Positions 19,227 to 29,466 of a DNA stretch of 64,000 nt are shown one piece after another. Below the pieces are notes generated by a model, which did no database searches, was not told the origin of the DNA, and saw nothing but the letters and a program-made list of their open reading frames with translations. Source of the DNA: Zoogloea dura (GTDB lineage: Bacteria; Pseudomonadota; Gammaproteobacteria; Burkholderiales; Rhodocyclaceae); contig NZ_JABBGA010000002.1 in assembly GCF_012927165.1 (NCBI RefSeq), positions 310,001 to 374,000 of the forward strand. Direction: 5' to 3'. The position numbers and the translations under genes were made by a program. Within the stretch, counting starts at the first letter, position 1. Every line of letters starts with the position of its first letter.

Positions 19227-20018
19227 TCAGGCGGCCTTCTTCATCTGCTTCTGGTACAGGAACTCCAGGATCGCTCCACGACATTCGGCAAAGTGCGGAT
19301 CGTGGGCCAGCGCCAGGCGGTCGCGGGGCTTGTCCAGCTTGACCTCGAGGATCTCGCCGATGGTCGCCGCCGGGCCGTTGGTCATCATCACCACCCGGTC
19401 GGACAGCAGCACCGCCTCATCCACGTCGTGGGTCACCATCACCACGGTGGCGCCGGTCTTCTCCATCACGCCGATCAGCTCGTCCTGCAGGGAGGCCCGG
19501 GTCAGCGCATCCAAAGCGCCAAAGGGCTCGTCCATCAGCAGGATCTTGGGCTCCATGGCGAAGGCCCGGGCGATCCCGATACGCTGCTTCATGCCGCCGG
19601 AGATCTCGTGGGGCATCTTCTGGGTGGCATGGGTCATGTGCACCATCTCCAGGGCCGCCGCGGTGCGCTCCTTCAATTTGGCCTTGCCCTCCTTGGCGCC
19701 GAAGACCCGCTCGACGGCCAGGTAGACGTTCTCGAAACAGCTCAGCCAGGGCAACAGGGAGTGGTTCTGGAAGACCACCGCCCGCTCGGGCCCGGGGCCG
19801 GCGATCTCGCGGCCGCTGCACAGCATGACCCCCGAAGTGGGCAGGGTCAGGCCGGCGATCAGGTTGAGCAGGGTGGATTTGCCGCAGCCAGAGTGGCCGA
19901 TCAGCGACACCACTTCGCCACTGCGGATCTGCAGATTGACATCCTTCAGGGCGACGAAGCGGCCCTTCTTGGTCTCGAAGGCCATGCCGACGTTTTCGAC
20001 CTTGACGATTGCGTTCAT
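19227..20018 (-). CDS. nrtD: Nitrate ABC transporter, ATP-binding protein
   Basis: A 263-residue ATPase of the NrtCD/SsuB/TauB family that powers uptake of nitrate (or nitrite/cyanate). Walker A is GHSGCGKST (41-49), the signature is EISGGMKQR, Walker B is ILLMDEPFGALD and the switch is VTHDVDEA. The ATG at 20018 has AGGAG upstream. It is the last gene of nrtABD. There is no NrtC-like fused solute-binding ATPase. It acts on the cytoplasmic face with a pair of NrtB permeases. Confidence 0.93.
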   Translation of the reverse strand: MNAIVKVENVGMAFETKKGRFVALKDVNLQIRSGEVVSLIGHSGCGKSTLLNLIAGLTLPTSGVMLCSGREIAGPGPERAVVFQNHSLLPWLSCFENVYLAVERVFGAKEGKAKLKERTAAALEMVHMTHATQKMPHEISGGMKQRIGIARAFAMEPKILLMDEPFGALDALTRASLQDELIGVMEKTGATVVMVTHDVDEAVLLSDRVVMMTNGPAATIGEILEVKLDKPRDRLALAHDPHFAECRGAILEFLYQKQMKKAA

Positions 20019-20041: not shown

Positions 20042-20998
20042 TCAGTTGGTGCCGTAGCTGAAGCGACGGGCAATCAGCAGCAGCAGTTGTTCGAGCAGCA
20101 GGCCGACGATGCCGATCACGAAGATGGCGATGATGATGTGCTCGACCTTGAGGTTGTTCCATTCATCCCACACCCAGAAGCCGATGCCGACGCCGCCGGT
20201 GAGCATCTCGGCCGCCACGATGACCAGCCAGGCGGTGCCGATGGACAGGCGGATGCCGGTGAGCATGTATGGCAGCACCGAGGGCAGGAGGATCTTGGTG
20301 ATGATCTTGAACTCGGACAGGTTGAGCACCCGCGCCACGTTCAGGTAGTCCTGCGGCACCCGCTGCACGCCCTGGGCGGTGTTGAGGATCATCGGCCAGA
20401 TGGAGCAGATGAAGATGGTCCAGGTGGAAGCCGGATCGGCGGCCTTGAAGACCATCAGGCCGATGGGCAGCCAGGCCAGCGGAGACACCGGGCGCAGGAT
20501 GCTGATGATCGGCTCGAGCATGCTGTTCATGAAGGCGAAGCGGCCGATGATGAAGCCCATCGGAATGCCCACCAGCGCGGCCACGCCAAAGCCGATGGCG
20601 ACCCGCTTGAGGGACGACAGGATGTTCCAGCCTATGCCCTGGTCGTTCGGGCCGTTGCGGTAGAAGGGGTCGGAGAACAGCGTGACGGCGGCATCGAAGG
20701 TCTTTGCCGGGCCGGGAAAGTCGGTCGAGCTCATGGCAACCAGCGCCCACAGGCCGATCACGAAGGCGAAGCCCAGGAAGGGCGGAATCACGGCACGGAA
20801 AAGCTGGCCGACGCGCTCACCAAAGGGCGTGCCGGGCTCGGCGACGGGCGCCGGAGCTGCATTCTGGATGGGCGTCGAGGAGGCCATATCGGATTCCTTG
20901 GCAGGGGTGGCTTCGCTGCGGGCCACGGGCGCCGGGTGAGCCGGCGCGGCTTCGGGCGCAACGGCCCCGAGCGCAGACGTGAGGGTTGCAGTATTCAT
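20042..20998 (-). CDS. nrtB: Nitrate ABC transporter, permease protein
   Basis: A 318-residue inner-membrane permease. A roughly 65-residue Ala/Pro-rich hydrophilic N-terminal extension precedes the first helix (FLGFAFVIGLWALVAM), then a BPD-type permease domain with the cytoplasmic EAA-like loop around LNVARVLNLSEFKIITKILLPSVLPYML and the last helix ending RRFSYGTN. This form is typical of NrtB. The ATG at 20998 has GGAGAT upstream. It lies 92 bases after nrtA and 23 bases before nrtD in the operon. Confidence 0.92.
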   Translation of the reverse strand: MNTATLTSALGAVAPEAAPAHPAPVARSEATPAKESDMASSTPIQNAAPAPVAEPGTPFGERVGQLFRAVIPPFLGFAFVIGLWALVAMSSTDFPGPAKTFDAAVTLFSDPFYRNGPNDQGIGWNILSSLKRVAIGFGVAALVGIPMGFIIGRFAFMNSMLEPIISILRPVSPLAWLPIGLMVFKAADPASTWTIFICSIWPMILNTAQGVQRVPQDYLNVARVLNLSEFKIITKILLPSVLPYMLTGIRLSIGTAWLVIVAAEMLTGGVGIGFWVWDEWNNLKVEHIIIAIFVIGIVGLLLEQLLLLIARRFSYGTN

Positions 20999-21090: not shown

Positions 21091-22350
21091 TCAGGCGGCC
21101 TTGATCTTGAAGGAGGCGGCGTACTTCTTCGGGTCCTTGCCGTCCCACACGACACCGTCGAAGAACTTCGAGCTGCGGAAGTCGGACTTGGGCACCGGCG
21201 TGCCGACGATGGAGGCGGCCTGCTTGTACAGCTCGGTCTTGTTGATGGCCTTGGCCACGGCCAGGTAGTCCACGTCCTGCTTGAGCAGGCCCCAGCGGCG
21301 ATGCTGGGTCAGGAACCACATGCCGTCGGACAGGTAGGGGAAGTTCACCAGGCCGTCGTTGTAGAACTTCATGTAGTTCTTGTCCGACCAACTCTTGCCC
21401 AGTCCATTTTCGTACTGGCCGATCATGCGGCTGCGGATCACATCCACGTCGGTGTTCACATAGCTCTTGGCGGCCACCGTCTCGGCGGTCTTGGAGCGGT
21501 TGGCGGCGCTGGCGTCGATCCACTTGGATGCTTCGAGGATCGCGCAGATCATGGCGCGGGCGGTGTTCGGGTACTTGGCCGCGAATTCGGCGGTGGCGCC
21601 CAGCACCTTCTCGGGGTGGTCGGTCCAGATATCCTGGGTGGTCATCGCGGTGAAACCGATCTTGTCCACGATGGCACGCTGGTTCCAGGGCTCACCCACG
21701 CAGTAGCCGTCCATGTTGCCGACCCGCATGTTGGCGACCATCTGCGGAGGCGGCACGACGATGTTCTTGACGTCCTTGAAGGGGTCGATGTCGTGGGCCG
21801 CCAGCCAGTAGTAGAGCCACATGGCGTGGGTGCCGGTGGGGAAGGTCTGGGCGAAGGTGTATTCCTTCTCCTTCTTCGCCACCAGCTTCGACAGGGAGGC
21901 GCCATCCACCGCGCCCTTGTCCTTGAGCGCGTTCGACAGGGTGATGGCCTGGCCGTTGTTGTTGAGGGTCATCAGCACGGCCATGTCCTTCTTGGGACCG
22001 CCGATACCCAGGTGCAGGCCATATACCAGGCCGTACAACACATGCGCCGCGTGCAGCTCGCCGTTGGCCAGCTTGTCCCGCACACCGGCCCAGGAGGCTT
22101 CCTTGCTGGGGGTGATCTTGATGCCGTACTTCTTGTCGAAACCCATGACCGAAGCCATGACCACCGAGGAACAGTCGGTCAGCGGGATGAAGCCGATCCT
22201 GACTTCTTCCAGCTCCGGTTTATCCGAACCGGCAGCCCACGCGCCGGCAGAGGGGAGCATCGTGCCCATTGCAGCCATACCTCCAAGGGTTGCCCCAGCC
22301 TTGAGAAAGCCGCGGCGGGAAAGATTCTTGTCGTCGAAACGCTCGCTCAT
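21091..22350 (-). CDS. nrtA: Nitrate ABC transporter, periplasmic substrate-binding protein (Tat substrate)
   Basis: A 419-residue NrtA/NasF-type binding protein. It carries a twin-arginine signal, SRRGFLKAG (11-19) with a hydrophobic core to about 40. Family features include RIGFIPLTDCSSVVMA, DKLANGELHAAHVLYGLVYG, PPPQMVANMRVGNMDGYCVGEPWN and QYENGLGKSWSDKNYMKFY. It delivers nitrate to NrtB. The start codon lies just after a leader terminator, so expression depends on readthrough. The ribosome site GGGGCGAG is modest. Twin-arginine export is usual in this family. Confidence 0.93.
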   Translation of the reverse strand: MSERFDDKNLSRRGFLKAGATLGGMAAMGTMLPSAGAWAAGSDKPELEEVRIGFIPLTDCSSVVMASVMGFDKKYGIKITPSKEASWAGVRDKLANGELHAAHVLYGLVYGLHLGIGGPKKDMAVLMTLNNNGQAITLSNALKDKGAVDGASLSKLVAKKEKEYTFAQTFPTGTHAMWLYYWLAAHDIDPFKDVKNIVVPPPQMVANMRVGNMDGYCVGEPWNQRAIVDKIGFTAMTTQDIWTDHPEKVLGATAEFAAKYPNTARAMICAILEASKWIDASAANRSKTAETVAAKSYVNTDVDVIRSRMIGQYENGLGKSWSDKNYMKFYNDGLVNFPYLSDGMWFLTQHRRWGLLKQDVDYLAVAKAINKTELYKQAASIVGTPVPKSDFRSSKFFDGVVWDGKDPKKYAASFKIKAA

Positions 22351-22374: not shown

Positions 22375-22430
22375 AAAAAAAAGAGGGCGTCTCACTCCTC
22401 CGCGAATGATTCGCTGAGGAATGGACGCCC
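22375..22430 (-). terminator. Leader (attenuator) terminator in front of nrtA
   Basis: On the minus strand GGGCGTC (22424-22430) and GACGCCC (22385-22391) enclose further pairing (TCCTC with GAGGA, GCGAA with TTCGC) and are followed by eight T residues (22375-22382). The hairpin lies about 25 bases before the nrtA start and therefore ends the transcript before the coding region unless it is disrupted. Confidence 0.9.
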
Positions 22431-22437
22431 TTGTCCA
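22422..22437 (-). promoter_or_regulatory. ANTAR-target hairpin P2, overlapping the attenuator
   Basis: TGGAC-AAGGGC-GTCCA: a five-base-pair stem with a six-base loop having A at position 1 and G at position 4, as in known ANTAR targets. Bases 22422-22430 are also in the 5' arm of the terminator, so P2 and the terminator exclude each other. Confidence 0.75.
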
Positions 22438-22454
22438 AGTCTGATCGCCTGATC

Positions 22455-22480
22455 AAGCCGGGCCGCCGTTGGACCGACTT
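22455..22480 (-). promoter_or_regulatory. ANTAR-target hairpin P1
   Basis: AAGTCGGTCC and GGCCCGGCTT pair over ten positions with one U-C mismatch and one U-G wobble, closing a six-base loop AACGGC with A at position 1 and G at position 4. Together with P2 it forms the two-hairpin element bound by NasT/NasR/EutV-type regulators. A short extra stem (TGATC/GATCA) lies between the two. Confidence 0.72.
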
Positions 22481-22493
22481 CGAGGAGTACTAA

Positions 22494-22508
22494 GCGAGCG
22501 CTGTGCCA
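22494..22508 (-). promoter_or_regulatory. Sigma54 (-24/-12) promoter of nrtABD
   Basis: TGGCACAGCGCTCGC on the minus strand matches TGGCAC-N5-TTGC except for one base. Start of transcription would be near 22482, directly in front of hairpin P1. Confidence 0.75.
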
Positions 22509-22515
22509 GAAAAAA

Positions 22516-22528
22516 TAAGATGTTGATT
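22516..22528 (-). promoter_or_regulatory. IHF-binding site match upstream of the sigma54 promoter
   Basis: AATCAACATCTTA on the minus strand agrees fully with WATCAANNNNTTR and lies in an AT-rich stretch between the NtrC-like palindrome and the -24 element, where DNA bending is expected. Confidence 0.55.
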
Positions 22529-22568
22529 AATATGAATATACTCAAAAAACAAAACAACTTACCCCTTT

Positions 22569-22587
22569 AGAGGTAAATAAAACCTCT
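22569..22587. repeat. Inverted repeat in the nrt upstream region
   Basis: AGAGGT and ACCTCT flank a seven-base AT spacer. No T-tract follows on the plus strand. It may be a second operator; no regulator is proposed. Confidence 0.3.
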
Positions 22588-22595
22588 CACACTCA

Positions 22596-22612
22596 TGCAC
22601 TGCGGCAGTGCA
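22596..22612. promoter_or_regulatory. NtrC-type upstream activator site
   Basis: TGCACTGCGGCAGTGCA is a 17-base palindrome (one central base) that fits the NtrC consensus TGCACY-N5-RGTGCA. It lies about 90-105 bases upstream of the -24 element, a usual enhancer distance. Confidence 0.7.
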
Positions 22613-22683: not shown

Positions 22684-22719
22684 AAAAAGGGCGGAAGCCG
22701 GTTTTCCGGCTGCCGCCCC
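22684..22719 (-). terminator. Rho-independent terminator of nasT
   Basis: On the minus strand GGGCGG.AGCCGG / CCGGCT.CCGCCC around a four-base loop is followed by TTTTTC. It separates nasT from the nrt promoter region, so nrtABD needs its own promoter. Confidence 0.85.
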
Positions 22720-22753: not shown

Positions 22754-23329
22754 TCAGAGTAGAAGACTGGCCATGTCGATCACGTCGCGCGCCACCTCAG
22801 CCAGCTTGCGGCCCCGCTCCATGGCCAGCTTGCGCAGGGCGTGATAGGCCGCGTCCTCGTCCAGCCCACGGGCCTTCATGAGCAGCCCCTTGGCCCGGTC
22901 CACCAGGATCCGCTCAGACAGCTTGCGATTGGCGTCGTCCAGCTCGGCACGCAGGTGCTGGAACTCCTCGAACTGGGCGATGGCCACCTCGACCAGCGAA
23001 TCCAGGCGCTCGGGCGTAACGGAATCAACCACATAGGACGACACGCCGGCCTTCACGGCACGCCGGATCATCTCGGAGTCGGTGTCCTGGGAGAACAACA
23101 GCACCGGTCGCGGACAGTCCCGATTCATGGTGGCGAGGTGTTCCAGGGTGTCCCGGCTCGGTGAATCGGCCTGGATGAAGATCACATCAGGCTTGGTAGC
23201 GAGCACCTGATCGGACAAATCGAGCGCACTCGAAAGCGCCGCCACCACCTGATGACCTGCCAGGGCGAGGGCCGCGCAGACATCGGCGGCACGTTCGCGG
23301 GAAGAATCGACAACCAGTACTCGCAGCAT
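22754..23329 (-). CDS. nasT: NasT-like antiterminator: receiver domain plus ANTAR RNA-binding domain
   Basis: A 191-residue regulator with an N-terminal receiver-like domain (MLRVLVVDSSRERAADV, about 1-120) and a C-terminal ANTAR domain (about 130-190) whose signature is ILVDRAKGLLMKARGLDEDAAYHALRKLAMERGRKL. NasT proteins bind two-hairpin RNA elements and prevent leader termination of nitrate-assimilation operons; in known systems they are held inactive by the nitrate sensor NasS. The nrtA leader next door has such hairpins. No nasS gene is in the window. The ATG at 23329 is preferred; a GTG four codons upstream is possible. It is not the NIT-domain NasR form. Confidence 0.88.
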   Translation of the reverse strand: MLRVLVVDSSRERAADVCAALALAGHQVVAALSSALDLSDQVLATKPDVIFIQADSPSRDTLEHLATMNRDCPRPVLLFSQDTDSEMIRRAVKAGVSSYVVDSVTPERLDSLVEVAIAQFEEFQHLRAELDDANRKLSERILVDRAKGLLMKARGLDEDAAYHALRKLAMERGRKLAEVARDVIDMASLLL

Positions 23330-23432
23330 GGCGGAGACCACCGTAAAGACAATACTTTCGGTGTAGCAGGAAGCACGCCATCTTTCCTTGGCGTCCTGCG
23401 CCGCGTGCCTGGCGCAGGAGGGCTGGCAGGGC

Positions 23433-24989
23433 TCAGCCCCGCAACATGGCAGGATCCGCGCAGTCGAGGAGGAGCACCGAGACGTCGTCCCCCGCCGGTT
23501 GCCCCGCCAGGTGGCGGGTCAGGGCCTGGCGCAGAAGGCCCAGGTGGCTGGCTCGCCCGCCTCCGGCCAGCGCACGCACCAACCCCTCGTGGCCGAAAGG
23601 CTCGCCGGCCTGGTTCTCGGCCTCGGTCAGGCCATCGGAGCACAGCACGATCTGCCCCGGGCCATCCCAGGTGAAGGCTTCACAGACCACCGCCGCCTCT
23701 GCCGAGGGCAGGATGCCGAGGGGCAGCTGGCGGGACGGGAAGCGCTGCCGCACCTGCCCATCCTCGCTCACCTGCAGCACATCCGGCACGCCGCCGACCC
23801 AGATCTCGCCGGACGGACGGGACGCTTCCAGGCGCACCAGCGCGGAGGCCACGAAATGCCCGGGAGGCAGCAGGCCGCAGAGCAGGTCGTTGAGCTCCGT
23901 CACCAGCCCTGCCAGGGGCAGGTTGCGGGCGGCGCCGCGGTAGAAGGCACCCAGGGCCGGCAGCACGCTGACCGCGGCGGCAAGCCCGTGGCCGGTGGCG
24001 TCGGCCAGCATCGCATAGAGGGCGCCATCGTTGGAGCGGGCCACCGCCACCACGTCGCCCGAGAAGTTGCGGGCCGGCATCACGGCATATTGCACGGCCT
24101 TGTCATGCAGCCAGTCGGAGCGGATCTGCCGCTCCATGATCTTCATGGCAAGCTCCTGCTCGCGCTCGGACTCATCGTGGTAGCGCTGCAGCCGGGCCGC
24201 GTCCTCGGCCAGCTGGCGCTGGATGCGACGGGCTTCCGACACATCGCGCACGATGCCGATGAACATGCGCCGGTTGGGCAGCTGCAGGTCGGACACGCCG
24301 ATCTCCATCGGGAAGATCGTGCCATCCTTGCGGCGGCCGGTCATTTCCCGGATCTGCCCGACCACCCGCTTCTCGCCGCCCATCACGTGGCGCTGCAGGT
24401 AGCTGCTGCCGCCTTCGGAGGCATCCGGCGGCAAAAGCATCGAGAAAGGCCTGCCGATCATCTCGGGGGCGCCGTAGCCGAAGATGTGGCTGGCAGCCCG
24501 GTTGACCGACAGGATCATGCCCTGGTCGTCCGCCGAGATGATGCCGTCGATCACGCCGTTGGCCACGGCCCGCACCTGTTCGAGCGAGCCGGACAGGCGG
24601 CGCTGCATGTCGAGCAGGCGGCGCAAGGCCTTGAAGCGGGCCGAGAAGACCGGGAAGGACAGGGGCTTGGCCAGGTAGTCGTCGGCCCCGATCTCGAGGC
24701 CGTGGACAATGTCACCCTCGCCGCTCAGCGCCGACAGGATGATGATGGGCACCCAGCGATCCTCCGACAGCGCCCGGATCTGCTTGATCGCCTCGAAGCC
24801 ATCCATGCGCGGCATCATCAGGTCCATCAGCACGATGTCGGGGGACTCCTGGCGGAAGATCTCCACGGCATCCACGCCGTCGGCGGCATACAGGGGCTGG
24901 CAGTTGAGGTGGCCCAGGAAGGCGCCCACGATCGTCCGGTTTGAGGCGATATCGTCGGCCACAAGGACTCTCAATGTATTTTCAGACAT
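23433..24989 (-). CDS. Response regulator with PAS and PP2C (SpoIIE/RsbU-like) phosphatase domains
   Basis: A 518-residue signalling protein: receiver (about 6-122, phosphoacceptor Asp56 in VLMDLMMP), PAS (about 145-265, with FGYGAPEMIGRPFSMLLP), a coiled linker (about 268-310) and a SpoIIE-type serine/threonine phosphatase (about 320-515; YAMLADATGHGLAAA, VLCSDGLTEAENQAGE, GDDVSVLLL). Such proteins dephosphorylate STAS-domain anti-anti-sigma factors. It is the last gene of a three-gene set after a histidine kinase and a receiver-HATPase. The STAS partner is not in the window. Confidence 0.9.
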   Translation of the reverse strand: MSENTLRVLVADDIASNRTIVGAFLGHLNCQPLYAADGVDAVEIFRQESPDIVLMDLMMPRMDGFEAIKQIRALSEDRWVPIIILSALSGEGDIVHGLEIGADDYLAKPLSFPVFSARFKALRRLLDMQRRLSGSLEQVRAVANGVIDGIISADDQGMILSVNRAASHIFGYGAPEMIGRPFSMLLPPDASEGGSSYLQRHVMGGEKRVVGQIREMTGRRKDGTIFPMEIGVSDLQLPNRRMFIGIVRDVSEARRIQRQLAEDAARLQRYHDESEREQELAMKIMERQIRSDWLHDKAVQYAVMPARNFSGDVVAVARSNDGALYAMLADATGHGLAAAVSVLPALGAFYRGAARNLPLAGLVTELNDLLCGLLPPGHFVASALVRLEASRPSGEIWVGGVPDVLQVSEDGQVRQRFPSRQLPLGILPSAEAAVVCEAFTWDGPGQIVLCSDGLTEAENQAGEPFGHEGLVRALAGGGRASHLGLLRQALTRHLAGQPAGDDVSVLLLDCADPAMLRG

Positions 24990-25081
24990 CCACTGCTCTC
25001 TGCTTCTCGGCAGGCGGGCATCCAGGCCCGGCCTGCGGCAATCCATCGGACGGGATAGCGGAAAGGGCCATCCCGGGCGGC

Positions 25082-25987
25082 TTAGGCGGGCTTGTCCGAC
25101 TTGGGCACGGTCACCACGACCTGGTTGCCCGGAGGCAGATAGGTCAGGCTGGTGAAGGACAGCTGCCGCGACAGGGCGATCCCCCGCCCGTTTGGCGCAA
25201 AGGCCCGTTCGGGATCGAAGTCCAGGAAGCGGCGCCAGTCGAAACCCGGACCATCATCACGGATCTCGAACACCCAGCGGGAATCATCCCCCCAAACCTT
25301 CAACCTGACTGATTTGTTCCGGTTCTCCGCCAGGGACAGGCGGTGCGCCACCTCATCCTCCCAGCGGTCCTCCTCGCGCAGGCGGCTCTTCTCGGCAAAA
25401 TCGATTCCCAGGTTGCCGTGCTCGACGCCATTCACCAGCAGTTCGCAGAGCCCCATGGCCAGCGTTTCCGGCTGGGGCCCCAGCAAGGCGACGAAGGACG
25501 CCAGATTGCGCGCTTCGTCCAGGGTGCGGATGCTGAAGGCCCCTTCGGTCATGCAGTTCATCGCCTTGGCGTGGTCGTTGAGGCTGGCCCGCAACTCCCG
25601 GCGCACCCGCATGTCGTCCAGCGCCGAGCGGATGATGGTCTGCAGCGCCTCGCCCTCGAAAGGCTTGGTCAGGTAATAGAAAGCTCCCGCTGCCAGCCCT
25701 TCGCGCACCTGCTCCGGTGAAGTCGCGGCAGTCTGCATGATCACCGGGATGCTGCTCAGGCGCTCGTCGGCCTTGATCTTGCGCAGCAGCATGATGCCGT
25801 CCATGCCCGGCATCATGCGATCCAGCAGGACCAGGTCGAACTCCCGCTCCCGGTCACCCAGCGCCTCCCAGGCCGCATCGCCGGATTCGACCATGACCAG
25901 GTCGAAATCCATCTCATCCAGATACTCCGCGACGATATCCAGGTTGAAGGGTTCATCGTCGACCACCAGTATGCGTGCCCTGCTCAT
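25082..25987 (-). CDS. Response regulator fused to HATPase (RsbW-like) domain
   Basis: A 301-residue protein with a canonical receiver (about 4-120; acidic VVDDE, Asp56 in VLLDRMMPG, KPFEG) and a GHKL ATPase domain (about 155-300) of the anti-sigma/RsbW kind, with ALCELLVNG-like segment GLCELLVNGVEHGNLGI, EIRDDGPGFD and NGRGIALSR. There is no HisKA. It probably phosphorylates or binds a partner-switch protein according to receiver state. Its ATG directly follows the kinase stop codon (TAGATG), with AGGAAG upstream. A paralogue with a degenerate receiver lies about 8 kb away in this window. Confidence 0.88.
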   Translation of the reverse strand: MSRARILVVDDEPFNLDIVAEYLDEMDFDLVMVESGDAAWEALGDREREFDLVLLDRMMPGMDGIMLLRKIKADERLSSIPVIMQTAATSPEQVREGLAAGAFYYLTKPFEGEALQTIIRSALDDMRVRRELRASLNDHAKAMNCMTEGAFSIRTLDEARNLASFVALLGPQPETLAMGLCELLVNGVEHGNLGIDFAEKSRLREEDRWEDEVAHRLSLAENRNKSVRLKVWGDDSRWVFEIRDDGPGFDWRRFLDFDPERAFAPNGRGIALSRQLSFTSLTYLPPGNQVVVTVPKSDKPA

Positions 25988-28900
25988 CTATTCTTCCTTC
26001 TCCGCCACGCTGCCCGAACGGGGCAGGGACTCTGTTCCAAGGGGCAGGACGACCGAGAAGTCCGCCCCGCCAACTGCATTGTTGCAAGCACTGATCCGGC
26101 CGCCATGGGCCACCACGATCTCCTGGCAGATCGCCAGCCCGAGGCCCGTGCCACCGGCTCCGGTGCGCGTCCGGCTACTTTGCACGAATTTGTCGAACAC
26201 CACGTCGAGTTCCGCCAGGGGGATGCCAATCCCCTCGTCTGACACAAGGATCTCCACCGCGGGCGCCCCGTCGAGGCTGGCCATGGCCAGGCGCACCCGG
26301 ATGGCGCGCCCCTCCGGCGTGAACTTGCCCGCATTGGACAGCAGGTTGCGTATCACCTGCCCCATCTTCGCCGAATCGACCATCACCTCGGGCAGGGGCC
26401 CTGCAAGCTCCACCTGCACCATCTGCCGCCGCGACTGGAAGAGCGCGGCAAAATCGTTCAGCCCATCCCGGATGATCTGCTCGAGATCGGCCGGGGCCAG
26501 CGACAGCGTCATGCGGCCCGCCTCGAACTTGGACAGGTCGAGCAGATCGTTGAGCAACACGAGCAGCCGCTCGCCGCTGACCCGGATGCGATGGAAGTAG
26601 CCGCGCAACTTCTCGTGACCGACCTGGGTGACCCGCGTTTCACCGAGCCGCGCGTAGCTCAGCACCCCATGCATCGGCGTCCTCAGCTCGTGCGACATGT
26701 TGGCCAGGAACACCGACTTGGCCTCGTTGGCCGCCTCCGCCGCCTCCTTGGCAAGCTGGAGATCGTGAGTCCGGGCGGCCACCAGTGACGCAAGGTTCTG
26801 ATTATGGTCCAGGATCTGGCTTTCCCGGGCCTTGGCATCGTCGATGTCGGTATGGGTACCGATCATGCGCAGGGCCCGGCCATCCGGCGCGCGCTCCACC
26901 ACCAGGCCCCGGATCAGGACCCACTTGTAGCGGCCGTCCTTGCAGCGCATCCGCAGCTCCTGCGTGAACACCGGGGTCTCGCCCCTGAGGTGCGCATCCT
27001 GCGCCTCCAGCGCCGCCGCCAGGTCGTCCGGATGCACGCGCTCCGACCAGGCGCCCAGATCATCGCCGATCTCTTCGGCGGCGTAACCCAGCATCGCCGT
27101 CCAGCGCAGGGAACGGAACACCCGGCCGGTCGCCAGGTTCCAGTCCCACACGCCGTCACCGGCCCCGTCCAGGGCGAACTGCCAGCGGGCCTCGCTCTCC
27201 CGCAAGGCCAGCTCGGCCAGCTTGAGATCGGTCACATCGCGGATCACCGCCAGGCTGCCGCCGGTGCGGATGGCCCGGAAGCGGGCCTCAAAGTGGCGCC
27301 CCTTGCCGCCCCGCCGCGACGCATACTCGATCCGCTGCAGCGTGCCGGTGCGCGACGCCTGCACCGCGGCCTGGGCAAAGCGCCGGGCCATGTCGGGCGA
27401 CAGAGCGTCTTCCAGGCGATGCCCCAGGAAGGACTCCGGCGGCATCGACAGGGCGTCGCCACTGGGCGCGTGATAGCGGACGATGCGCATCCCATCGTCG
27501 AGCTGGAACAACATGTCGGGGATCGCCTCGATCAGCGACTCATTGGTCGCATGGGCTTCGCGGATGGCCTGCTGCTCCTGCCGGCGCACGGTCACGTCCT
27601 CGACGATCACCCAGCGCCCCGCATCGCGGCTGCCGACCCGCGTGGTGGTGACCAGGACCGGCACCCGGTGGCCGTTCTTGTGCACCATCTCGGTCTCGTA
27701 GGCCTGCATCGGAGCCACCAGACAGGCATCCCCGTCGGCCTGGATGAAGCCGTCCGGATGCTCCGGCGGTGGGGGCAAGAGGCAGCCGGGGCGGCACAGC
27801 TCATCCTCGGCATAGCCGGTGATGCGGCAGAAGGCGGCGTTGGCCTGCCGGAAGCGCCCCTGCCCGTCCACCAGCGCCATGCCCAGCGAGGCATGCCGGT
27901 ACAGCGCATCGAGCTTGGCATGGGAATCCACCACCGCCTGCTGGGCGCGGCGCAGCTCGGTCACGTCCGACACCGCCCCGGCCGTGCGCAGCGGCCTGCC
28001 GCGGGCATCGAACTCGGTCTTGCCGGCCAGGTGGAACCAGCCCGAGCTGCCATCGATACGCCGGATGGGGATGACACATTCGAGCAGGGCCCGGTCCTTG
28101 ACGTGCAGACGGAAGGCACGCAGGAAGGTCCGCCGGGCCGGCGGCGTCATGGACCGCAGGACACCGCGCACCGTGCGGGGCAGCCCGCCTGCCGGATAGC
28201 CGAACAGGCGGTCGCAGCGCAGCGACAGGAACAACGTGGCGTGGCCCGCCTGCCATTCCCAGATCCCTTCATCGGTGGCGGACACCGCCAGCTCGAAGCG
28301 CTTCTCGCTGTCGCGCAGCTCACCGGTCATCTGTTCGGCGATGGCCACCGCCCGCTTCTGCTGCCCGGCCAGTGCCGCCAGCAGGAAGGCCAACAGCACG
28401 CTGGTCAGGGCTCCGCCAAAGGCCAGCAGGGTCGACGAAGCAAAGTCGCCGTCTGCGCCGGGAACCGTTACACGGACCCGCCAGGTGCGCTCACCAAAGC
28501 GGACCTCACGCTCAATCGTCGCAGCCCCTATCCCGGGAGAGTCCTTTGCCGGGTACAACTTCACGGCCCCCGCCGCCGTGACGTCCTCGACCACCAGCCC
28601 GACCCCCGACGCCGATGACTCGAGCAAGCCGTCGAACAAGGCGATCGCGTTCAGGCCCAGCATGACGATCCCCTCGGGCCCGAGGCTCGGCGCCAGCTCA
28701 TCCACCGGCCGCGCAACCCGGTACACCACCACCCCGTTCACCCGCGACGCCCCCCCCAGGACCACCAGGGACAAAGGCGGGCTCATGGCGATCCCCTTGC
28801 TGCGGATCGCCGACTCCATGGCGGCACGCCGCAGGGGCTCGGCGAAACTGTCATAGCCGATGGCCGCTTCGGTCTTCGGCGTCAGGGGCCAGAAATAGGT

Positions 28901-29386
28901 CAGGGGAAAAGTGTAGGGGCCACGCGCCGGGTCGGGCACGGGCTGGATCCGGATGTCACGCCCATAGCTGGCGGTCAGCACCGCCTCCACGGCCGCCACC
29001 CGCTCCACCTCCACGCGCCGGGCCAGGCCGATGCCGACTACCTCGGGCAAGGCCTCGGTCGGGCGCAGGCCGGCCACATAGCCCTCGAACTCGCGCCGCT
29101 CGACCAGGTGCTGGGCATCGAACAGGCCGGCCACGCCACGCAGGATGAAATCGACCTTGCCGAGCCGTTCCTCGAGTTGATGCTCAAGGCGATCCGCCAC
29201 GGCCTCGTTGCGGGCCTGCTCGATCTCCAGCTCATGGCTGTGCAGGGTCTGCCAGCCCAGGCCGGTCAGCACACCCCCCAGCAGCAGGGCCGCGACGAAC
29301 CAGTGCCCCCGCCCGCCGGGCAGGCGGCCCGAACGGATACGGCCACCAGGCAGCCTGAAGATGGACAAAAAGGGGGGTGGGCTCAT
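25988..29386 (-). CDS. Membrane histidine kinase with CHASE and multiple PAS domains
   Basis: An 1132-residue sensor: TM1 (about 29-48), periplasmic CHASE domain (about 60-260, e.g. YVAGLRPTEALPEVVGIGLARRV), TM2 (about 325-345), four PAS/PAC modules (from about 365 to 875), HisKA with the phosphorylated His in FLANMSHELRTPMHG, and a HATPase domain with NLLSNAGKFTPEG, DEGIGIP and GGTGLGLAICQEIV. It senses an unknown periplasmic ligand and cytoplasmic signals and presumably phosphorylates the two downstream receivers. A TTG ten codons upstream is an alternative start; neither has a clear ribosome site. Confidence 0.9.
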   Translation of the reverse strand: MSPPPFLSIFRLPGGRIRSGRLPGGRGHWFVAALLLGGVLTGLGWQTLHSHELEIEQARNEAVADRLEHQLEERLGKVDFILRGVAGLFDAQHLVERREFEGYVAGLRPTEALPEVVGIGLARRVEVERVAAVEAVLTASYGRDIRIQPVPDPARGPYTFPLTYFWPLTPKTEAAIGYDSFAEPLRRAAMESAIRSKGIAMSPPLSLVVLGGASRVNGVVVYRVARPVDELAPSLGPEGIVMLGLNAIALFDGLLESSASGVGLVVEDVTAAGAVKLYPAKDSPGIGAATIEREVRFGERTWRVRVTVPGADGDFASSTLLAFGGALTSVLLAFLLAALAGQQKRAVAIAEQMTGELRDSEKRFELAVSATDEGIWEWQAGHATLFLSLRCDRLFGYPAGGLPRTVRGVLRSMTPPARRTFLRAFRLHVKDRALLECVIPIRRIDGSSGWFHLAGKTEFDARGRPLRTAGAVSDVTELRRAQQAVVDSHAKLDALYRHASLGMALVDGQGRFRQANAAFCRITGYAEDELCRPGCLLPPPPEHPDGFIQADGDACLVAPMQAYETEMVHKNGHRVPVLVTTTRVGSRDAGRWVIVEDVTVRRQEQQAIREAHATNESLIEAIPDMLFQLDDGMRIVRYHAPSGDALSMPPESFLGHRLEDALSPDMARRFAQAAVQASRTGTLQRIEYASRRGGKGRHFEARFRAIRTGGSLAVIRDVTDLKLAELALRESEARWQFALDGAGDGVWDWNLATGRVFRSLRWTAMLGYAAEEIGDDLGAWSERVHPDDLAAALEAQDAHLRGETPVFTQELRMRCKDGRYKWVLIRGLVVERAPDGRALRMIGTHTDIDDAKARESQILDHNQNLASLVAARTHDLQLAKEAAEAANEAKSVFLANMSHELRTPMHGVLSYARLGETRVTQVGHEKLRGYFHRIRVSGERLLVLLNDLLDLSKFEAGRMTLSLAPADLEQIIRDGLNDFAALFQSRRQMVQVELAGPLPEVMVDSAKMGQVIRNLLSNAGKFTPEGRAIRVRLAMASLDGAPAVEILVSDEGIGIPLAELDVVFDKFVQSSRTRTGAGGTGLGLAICQEIVVAHGGRISACNNAVGGADFSVVLPLGTESLPRSGSVAEKEE

Positions 29387-29466
29387 CACGCGTGGTGTAC
29401 GGCCCCGCCCCGGCAAGCTTGAGTTGCCGCCCGCCCTTCACTACCCAAAATGAGGCGACGGACGAC

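Follow-up and report, generated by a model that had tools for sequence, protein, structure and literature searches.

The DNA analysed here (the window) is a stretch of 64 kb from the genome of Zoogloea dura, which comprises 5.83 Mb in 83 contigs. On its minus strand lie, in this order, nasT (23341-22754), an NtrC-type palindrome, an IHF match, a sigma54 promoter, the hairpin P1, the hairpin P2 overlapping a terminator, and the genes nrtA, nrtB and nrtD. The nearest named relatives by NrtA, among the matches listed, are three Zoogloea records with 92-94% identity. The features are as follows.

22754-23341, minus strand: nasT-like gene for a REC-like and ANTAR protein of 195 amino acids with a GTG start (191 amino acids from a later ATG)
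22692-22708, minus strand: terminator-like hairpin 3' of nasT, found by pattern scan only
22596-22612, minus strand: NtrC-type palindrome TGCAC-N7-GTGCA, TGCACTGCCGCAGTGCA, with its centre some 97 bases 5' of the -24 element
22516-22528, minus strand: match to the IHF consensus WATCAA-N4-TTR, AATCAACATCTTA, between the NtrC site and the promoter
22494-22508, minus strand: predicted sigma54 (-24/-12) promoter TGGCAC-AGCGC-TCGC, with GG-N10-GC and 9 of 10 consensus bases
22455-22480, minus strand: predicted ANTAR hairpin P1 with the loop AACGGC at 22470-22465, close to the predicted transcript start and backed by folding and covariation
22422-22437, minus strand: predicted ANTAR hairpin P2, TGGAC-AAGGGC-GTCCA (GGAC-AAGGGC-GUCC in the RNA), which forms without the 3' arm of the terminator
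22375-22431, minus strand: predicted intrinsic terminator or attenuator, hairpin 22431-22384 and T8 at 22382-22375, whose first 10 bases are part of P2
21091-22350, minus strand: nrtA (ATG at 22350), nitrate-binding-type protein with a TAT signal (PF13379, 348-350 bits; TIGR01409, 22.6 bits, cut-off 16.7)
20042-20998, minus strand: nrtB permease (TIGR01183, 255 bits, cut-off 209)
19227-20018, minus strand: nrtD ATPase (TIGR01184, 330 bits, cut-off 292)

As the initial annotation had stated, nasT is the next gene 5' of the nrtA leader. Its product matches Pfam ANTAR with 70.1 bits and Response_reg with 34.7 bits, and only receiver-like and ANTAR domains were seen in it. The hairpin at 22692-22708 could possibly set nasT apart from the nrt promoter. 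Further 5' on the same strand (23433-29416, minus) a RR-PAS-SpoIIE protein, a RR-HATPase protein and a CHASE/PAS histidine kinase are encoded in a row.

The palindrome at 22612-22596 is the only one in the 64-kb window for gaps of 5-9 bases, and the IHF match at 22528-22516 is the only one on the minus strand of the window, the strand that was scanned. The GG-N10-GC core, the resemblance to the TGGCAC/TTGC consensus and the NtrC palindrome upstream together have the form of an NtrC/sigma54 promoter; the -12 element reads TCGC, not TTGC. The two strands of the 64 kb hold six sigma54 sites of such quality, this one included, and the match is therefore weak taken alone. Sigma54 transcription starts about 12 bases past the -12 element. 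This rule would place the transcript start near 22482, so P1 would extend from about +3 and be the first structure of the transcript.

Since single motifs were not decisive, the nrtA loci of relatives were compared. The comparison set consists of the best 80 of at least 593 nrtA loci. Two of these (L033 and L043), in which hardly any sequence precedes nrtA, were left out, so that leader counts refer to 79 leaders, the window and 78 relatives; upstream-region counts refer to 73 regions after removal of six with fewer than 60 bases 5' of the sigma54 site. Upstream of nrtA, 78 of the 79 leaders have a sigma54 site that agrees with the consensus at 9 or more of 10 bases, vs 34 of 1580 shuffles, and the remaining leader has 8 of 10. 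An NtrC-like palindrome, if up to 2 mismatches and a distance of up to 200 bases upstream of the sigma54 site are allowed, occurs in 62 of 73 regions vs 169 of 1460 shuffles, and in 30 of the 62 it lies at 101-110 bases from the sigma54 site. The palindrome and the promoter of the initial annotation were thus both located in the window and found again in the relatives. The full IHF match that it had listed is also present in the window, but the strict consensus recurs in only 5 of 73 regions vs 3 of 1460 shuffles (the window, two Zoogloea, L018 and L023). These counts weakly support an IHF site, which would at best be a feature of a few lineages.

The gene neighborhood recurs as well. In 59 of the 80 relatives nrtA is preceded by a same-strand gene for a NasT-type protein, within about 500 bases in 57 of them. 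By tblastn, a same-strand ANTAR frame precedes nrtA in 71 of the 80, at 1.4 and 3.1 kb in L036 and L090; no such frame was found in the other 9, for some of them because the upstream DNA is short. When the open frames of the 80 loci and the window were clustered, no same-strand cluster 5' of nrtA, the ANTAR gene apart, appeared in more than 24 of the 81 loci. These clusters are unannotated. A conserved third gene beside nasT that could act as a sensor was rejected on this ground.

The leader RNA was examined by folding. The terminator alone has a stability of -35.8 kcal/mol (z -7.30), reached by none of 200 shuffles, and ends in eight T; it was not among the matches of a simple terminator pattern scan. 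The free leader RNA folds as P1 plus terminator (z -4.14), the P1 stem having a single U.C mismatch at the third pair. P1 and P2 both fold once the 3' arm of the terminator is omitted, although the stability of that piece does not stand out from its shuffles (z -0.63, 44 of 200). The window thus has the dual hairpins with A1/G4 six-base loops that characterize an ANTAR-target RNA, and ten bases of the second, 22431-22422, also belong to the 5' arm of a predicted intrinsic terminator. The initial annotation had described the same two loops, AACGGC and AAGGGC, and the strong terminator, and both are confirmed; its overlap of nine bases is corrected to ten, and the U.C mismatch in P1, which it had passed over, is added. 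The folding it had proposed as a check bears out P1 and the terminator in the free RNA, and P1 together with P2 only when the terminator arm is left out.

P1, P2 and an overlapping terminator occur together in 57 of the 79 leaders vs 1 of 632 dinucleotide shuffles. This comparison backs the earlier description of the leader as an ANTAR double hairpin with a P2-exclusive terminator adjoining nasT. A terminator at least as stable as -10 kcal/mol occurs in 75 of 79 leaders vs 195 of 632 shuffles. By the criteria used, the full set is missing in 22 of the 79.

P2 is near-invariant in the 57 full leaders: the inner two pairs are identical in 57 of 57 and the third in 55, giving the closing GAC/GUC. 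P1 keeps its loop and varies its stem. Among 51 distinct sequences, 89.2% of the P1 cells are paired vs 56.9% in shuffled controls, 146 cells are changed on both sides vs 47.8, and the covariation score is 0.849 vs 0.233. Each of these values was reached by 0 of 500 shuffles, and sliding of the partner abolishes the signal; P1 and P2 were picked partly for pairing, so the covariation of the inner pairs is inflated and that of the outer pairs less so. The number of pairs with both-side change, seven, is not above shuffles (239 of 500). The elements, their order, the mutual exclusion of P2 and terminator, and the covariation are properties of the sequences themselves. The predicted NtrC site and sigma54 promoter are conserved across the relatives together with the putative ANTAR attenuator.

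Five relatives (L027, L030, L064, L076 and L079) have a sigma54 site 61-118 bases 5' of nrtA and show no P1/P2 and no terminator more stable than -10.1 kcal/mol. These relatives seem either to have lost the leader or not to have acquired it.

The leader resembles two families of Rfam. The narK RNA (RF03032) matches the window at 22507-22422 on the same strand with E 9.1e-5 and 31.7 bits, below the gathering cut-off of 43.2. Pseudomonas P11 (RF00625), which we take to be the NalA leader, matches on the same strand with E 0.0021 and 22.5 bits, below its cut-off of 70. No match in the whole 64-kb window passed the Rfam gathering cut-offs, and a gathering search of 8 relatives gave neither narK RNA nor P11; a sub-cut-off narK RNA match is present in L066 and L082 and none in L032 at E 0.05. 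The printed consensus of narK RNA includes GGCAC-N5-UUGC, the P1 loop CCAACGGCGG and the P2 letters GACAAAGACGUC, while the Rfam model has P1 alone paired. This suggests that the narK RNA motif is a sigma54 promoter plus an ANTAR target.

Such a system has published precedents. In the dual hairpins of the NasR/EutV type the ANTAR protein binds both loops and excludes a terminator (PMC3369931). Klebsiella nasF is reported to combine an Ntr-controlled start with ANTAR antitermination by NasR (PMC5424462), and the Pseudomonas nirBD leader NalA to combine an NtrC/sigma54 promoter with NasT antitermination (review PMC12830290). A combination of NtrC-driven initiation with antitermination is therefore not new. 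The Paracoccus nasA leader also has hairpins (PMC5424462), and Bradyrhizobium NasT is described as acting on nos and other leaders (PMC6759348).

The window shares with Pseudomonas NalA/P11 the initiation by NtrC and sigma54, a leader bound by NasT and a hairpin that blocks transcription (all three predicted here); the Pseudomonas operon is nirBD and its NasT is inhibited by NasS, whereas in the window the operon is nrtABD and NasS was not found (PMC12830290). It would share with Klebsiella nasF the two levels of Ntr control and ANTAR antitermination (PMC5424462, PMC3369931), but NasR is a NIT-ANTAR protein and the window protein has a receiver-like domain and no nitrate-sensing NIT. It shares with the NasS-NasT system of Paracoccus denitrificans a NasT-type protein, with the REC-like and ANTAR domains of that system, and hairpins in the leader of the neighboring operon. 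Paracoccus denitrificans has nasS, and nasS was not found in the Zoogloea dura genome. The NtrC site identified in Paracoccus precedes nasT (PMC5424462), while in Zoogloea dura a predicted one precedes the transporter operon.

On this evidence nrtABD very probably has an NtrC/sigma54-driven transcription attenuator that is operated by the ANTAR protein NasT. Binding of NtrC and of NasT and the direction of control are inferred by analogy with the known systems. Under nitrogen limitation phosphorylated NtrC would bind the palindrome and activate the sigma54 promoter, and the transcript would begin with the folded P1. As long as NasT is not active, the terminator would form by drawing in the second half of P2, and transcription would end at the T tract. 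NasT bound to the A1/G4 loops of P1 and P2 would hold P2, and the operon would be read.

Most of the interest rests on what NasT senses. No known nitrate-sensing domain was found in the window NasT. At the phosphoacceptor position, judged by eye, it and its three closest relatives have Gln, and five others have Asp, Asn or Glu; a pattern applied to 71 ANTAR proteins placed the residue in 29 (Asp 11, Glu 8, Gln 7, Asn 3) and failed in 42. The genome encodes two ANTAR proteins, NasT and a response-regulator-ANTAR protein on another contig. NIT fused to ANTAR was not found in the genome: the two NIT matches lie on C25 and C19, and the ANTAR domains on C12 and C10.

NasS, the cytosolic NrtA-like sensor, was not found in the Zoogloea dura genome by the PF13379 profile or by a NasS query. 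NrtA scores 350 bits with the profile, followed by proteins of 150, 82, 75, 24 and 23 bits; two reference NasS proteins from Alphaproteobacteria reach 244 and 191 bits. Judged by eye, the N-terminus of the 150-bit protein contains a twin arginine, and ABC transporter genes lie near its gene. The NasS query returned only NrtA (33%) and a 34-bit match to the 150-bit protein. Nor was a second NrtA/NasS-like frame found in the 80 loci, some of which lie on contigs with short flanks; the profile used on them does recover two NasS of Alphaproteobacteria, at 222 and 142 bits. Of 21 genomes searched from the genus, 16 have an NrtA of 347-354 bits; apart from these, just two proteins exceed 160 bits, both at about 280 bits and with N-termini left unread. 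Of 65 genomes of the family with a NasT of at least 168 bits, 41 have one strong PF13379 protein (at least 178 bits), downstream of nasT on the same strand, a count in which the N-terminus was read in few and a NasS scoring below 178 bits would be missed.

NasS nevertheless occurs in Betaproteobacteria, and the failure to find it applies to this genome, the searched genus genomes and the surroundings of nrtA in the 80 loci. Frames with a NasS-type N-terminus directly follow nasT in four family genomes (G024, G030, G085 and G089), a leaderless NrtA-like frame lies elsewhere in a fifth (L140 in G074), and in the betaproteobacterium Caballeronia an NrtA/NasS-like frame directly follows nasT (L124). 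Genes named nasS and nasT are reported in the betaproteobacterium Acidovorax citrulli (PMC10052978; nasS by name only). No paper on a NasT without NasS was found in a literature search that mostly excluded subscription journals. Two side observations concern the same protein family. A PF13379 domain lies in an unusually long open frame of about 720 amino acids in L142 (G049:C44), with similar frames in G104 and G140, and the NrtA-like proteins of L126-L130 have a Cys/His-rich N-terminal stretch (CxCGxHxS) near the start.

In 12 of the 80 relatives NasT is replaced, upstream of the nrtA leader, by a longer ANTAR protein that matches it mainly at the ANTAR end (L042, L047, L053, L054, L055, L060-L063, L072, L074 and L089). 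Both of those scanned, L053 and L060, contain a NIT domain. The leaders of all 12 have the full P1/P2 set and are counted in the 57. Two kinds of ANTAR protein thus seem to act on a single RNA design, and this points to sensors that can be exchanged while the RNA stays the same. A TAT-exported NrtA as a marker of loci without NasS was considered and rejected, since a twin arginine is present in nearly all NrtA of both classes (by eye). A first crude TAT pattern had matched 52 of all 80 NrtA and 1 of the 12 that accompany a longer ANTAR protein, a difference that was an artefact of the pattern.

A second candidate NasT target was found in the leader of nirBD elsewhere in the genome (C3 minus, L180:5843-5611). 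It has a sigma54 site with 10 of 10 bases, two hexaloops AACGAC at a spacing of 21 bases, and an NtrC-like palindrome with 2 mismatches; a T-tract before nirB was not found. The nirB comparison used 82 upstream regions, the best by NirB score and 40 further places, and the start was found in 81. A sigma54 site matching 9 or more of the 10 bases is present in 52 of these, the hexaloop pair in 29 and both features in 28. All 15 genus nirB loci that were read, four with a broken or cut nirB being left out, carry the sigma54 site and the hexaloop pair, and none of the 15 has a T-tract between P2 and nirB.

The effect on the ribosome-binding site was computed by folding 29 leaders, 27 of the 28 with both features plus L187 and L251. 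Clamping of P1/P2 raises the exposure of the Shine-Dalgarno sequence by at least 0.1 in 9 of 14 leaders outside the genus and lowers it in 15 of 15 genus leaders, Zoogloea dura included; the mean over the 29 falls from 0.47 to 0.36. These opposite effects do not support a clean translational switch at the nirBD leader. Translational control by ANTAR proteins has been described as repression in mycobacteria and is suspected elsewhere (PMC8164766, PMC3369931).

The genome was also scanned for further leaders of the nrtA type. The pattern RGACAANGGYGTCY with at most 1 mismatch gave 60 matches in the Zoogloea dura genome vs 70 for the reversed control, no excess that would point to further attenuators of this type. 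Thirty of the 60 matches were fetched and 26 of these evaluated; among the 26, P1 plus a P2-overlapping terminator was found in the window leader only. L169 has a terminator without P1, and L159 and L160 have P1-like hairpins without a terminator.

One alternative takes the hairpins as an ordinary terminator of some upstream transcript and the promoter match as chance. It could point to the six sigma54 matches of such quality in 64 kb and to the 195 of 632 shuffles that reach -10 kcal/mol, terminators being common. The conserved order in 57 of 79 leaders vs 1 of 632 shuffles, the sigma54 site in 78 of 79, the covariation of P1 and the fixed letters of the hexaloops make it extremely improbable. 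An attenuator operated by NasT is kept by the remaining alternatives, which concern the signal. The initial annotation had elongation require nitrate, making the locus an AND gate of nitrogen limitation and nitrate. The two layers, NtrC/sigma54 and ANTAR attenuator, are upheld; the nitrate arm is not supported and does not follow here, since NasS was not found in the genome or in the 80 loci (best 80 of at least 593) and a Paracoccus nasS mutant is reported to express the system constitutively without nitrate (PMC3795266). With NasS not found, NasT may be default-active or work with another partner.

A gate for nitrate and starvation would be rescued if a partner so far unrecognised, such as cytoplasmic NrtA not yet exported or a distant NasS, held NasT until nitrate is present. 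NrtA is a homologue of NasS (33% to the NasS query) and carries a TAT signal (TIGR01409). TAT substrates fold before export. Nitrate is also the natural signal given the product of the operon, and the genes named nasS and nasT in Acidovorax citrulli, known by name only, come from a betaproteobacterium (PMC10052978). These points have to be set against the missing NasS-like gene and against the twin-arginine N-termini that also occur beside the longer ANTAR proteins and so do not track the missing NasS, and the rescue is possible but doubtful. Somewhat more credible, though we would still not bet on it, is a constitutively active NasT, with the leader as a device for nitrogen status and possibly a second messenger: starvation alone would open the operon, and c-di-GMP, reported to inhibit NasT in Pseudomonas putida (review PMC12830290), could be the remaining input. 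The failure to find NasS in Zoogloea dura, the single strong PF13379 protein in 41 of 65 family genomes and the nitrate independence of nasS mutants (PMC3795266) agree with this. In the relative Azoarcus olearius, nitrate-assimilation genes except narK are up more than 50-fold in N2-fixing growth (PMC8467165), as expected if starvation alone opens the gate, but the paper names NasR, and the ANTAR protein of Azoarcus BH72 at this place may be either NasT or NasR. It would also be odd to retain an attenuator that is always open. A default-active NasT may leave the switch to follow nitrogen status, the amount of NasT or other ligands.

A wider version, which we regard as unlikely, is that NasT of Zoogloea and much of the family has shed NasS and become an orphan antiterminator that reads another signal and serves two operons with two outputs, a terminator at nrtABD and a hairpin pair without T-tract at nirBD. 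In that version P2 of nirBD would compete with pairing near the ribosome-binding site. If it is true, ANTAR binding would switch translation on in several relatives outside the genus, opposite in sign to the mycobacterial case.

With the NasT-operated attenuator, nrtABD of Zoogloea and of many Betaproteobacteria would join the operons under joint control by NtrC/sigma54 and an ANTAR protein, and the narK RNA motif of Rfam would gain a concrete reading. For the 41 of 65 family genomes with a single strong NrtA/NasS-type protein at the NrtA position, it would mean that NasT either works free of nitrate or has another nitrate-sensing partner.
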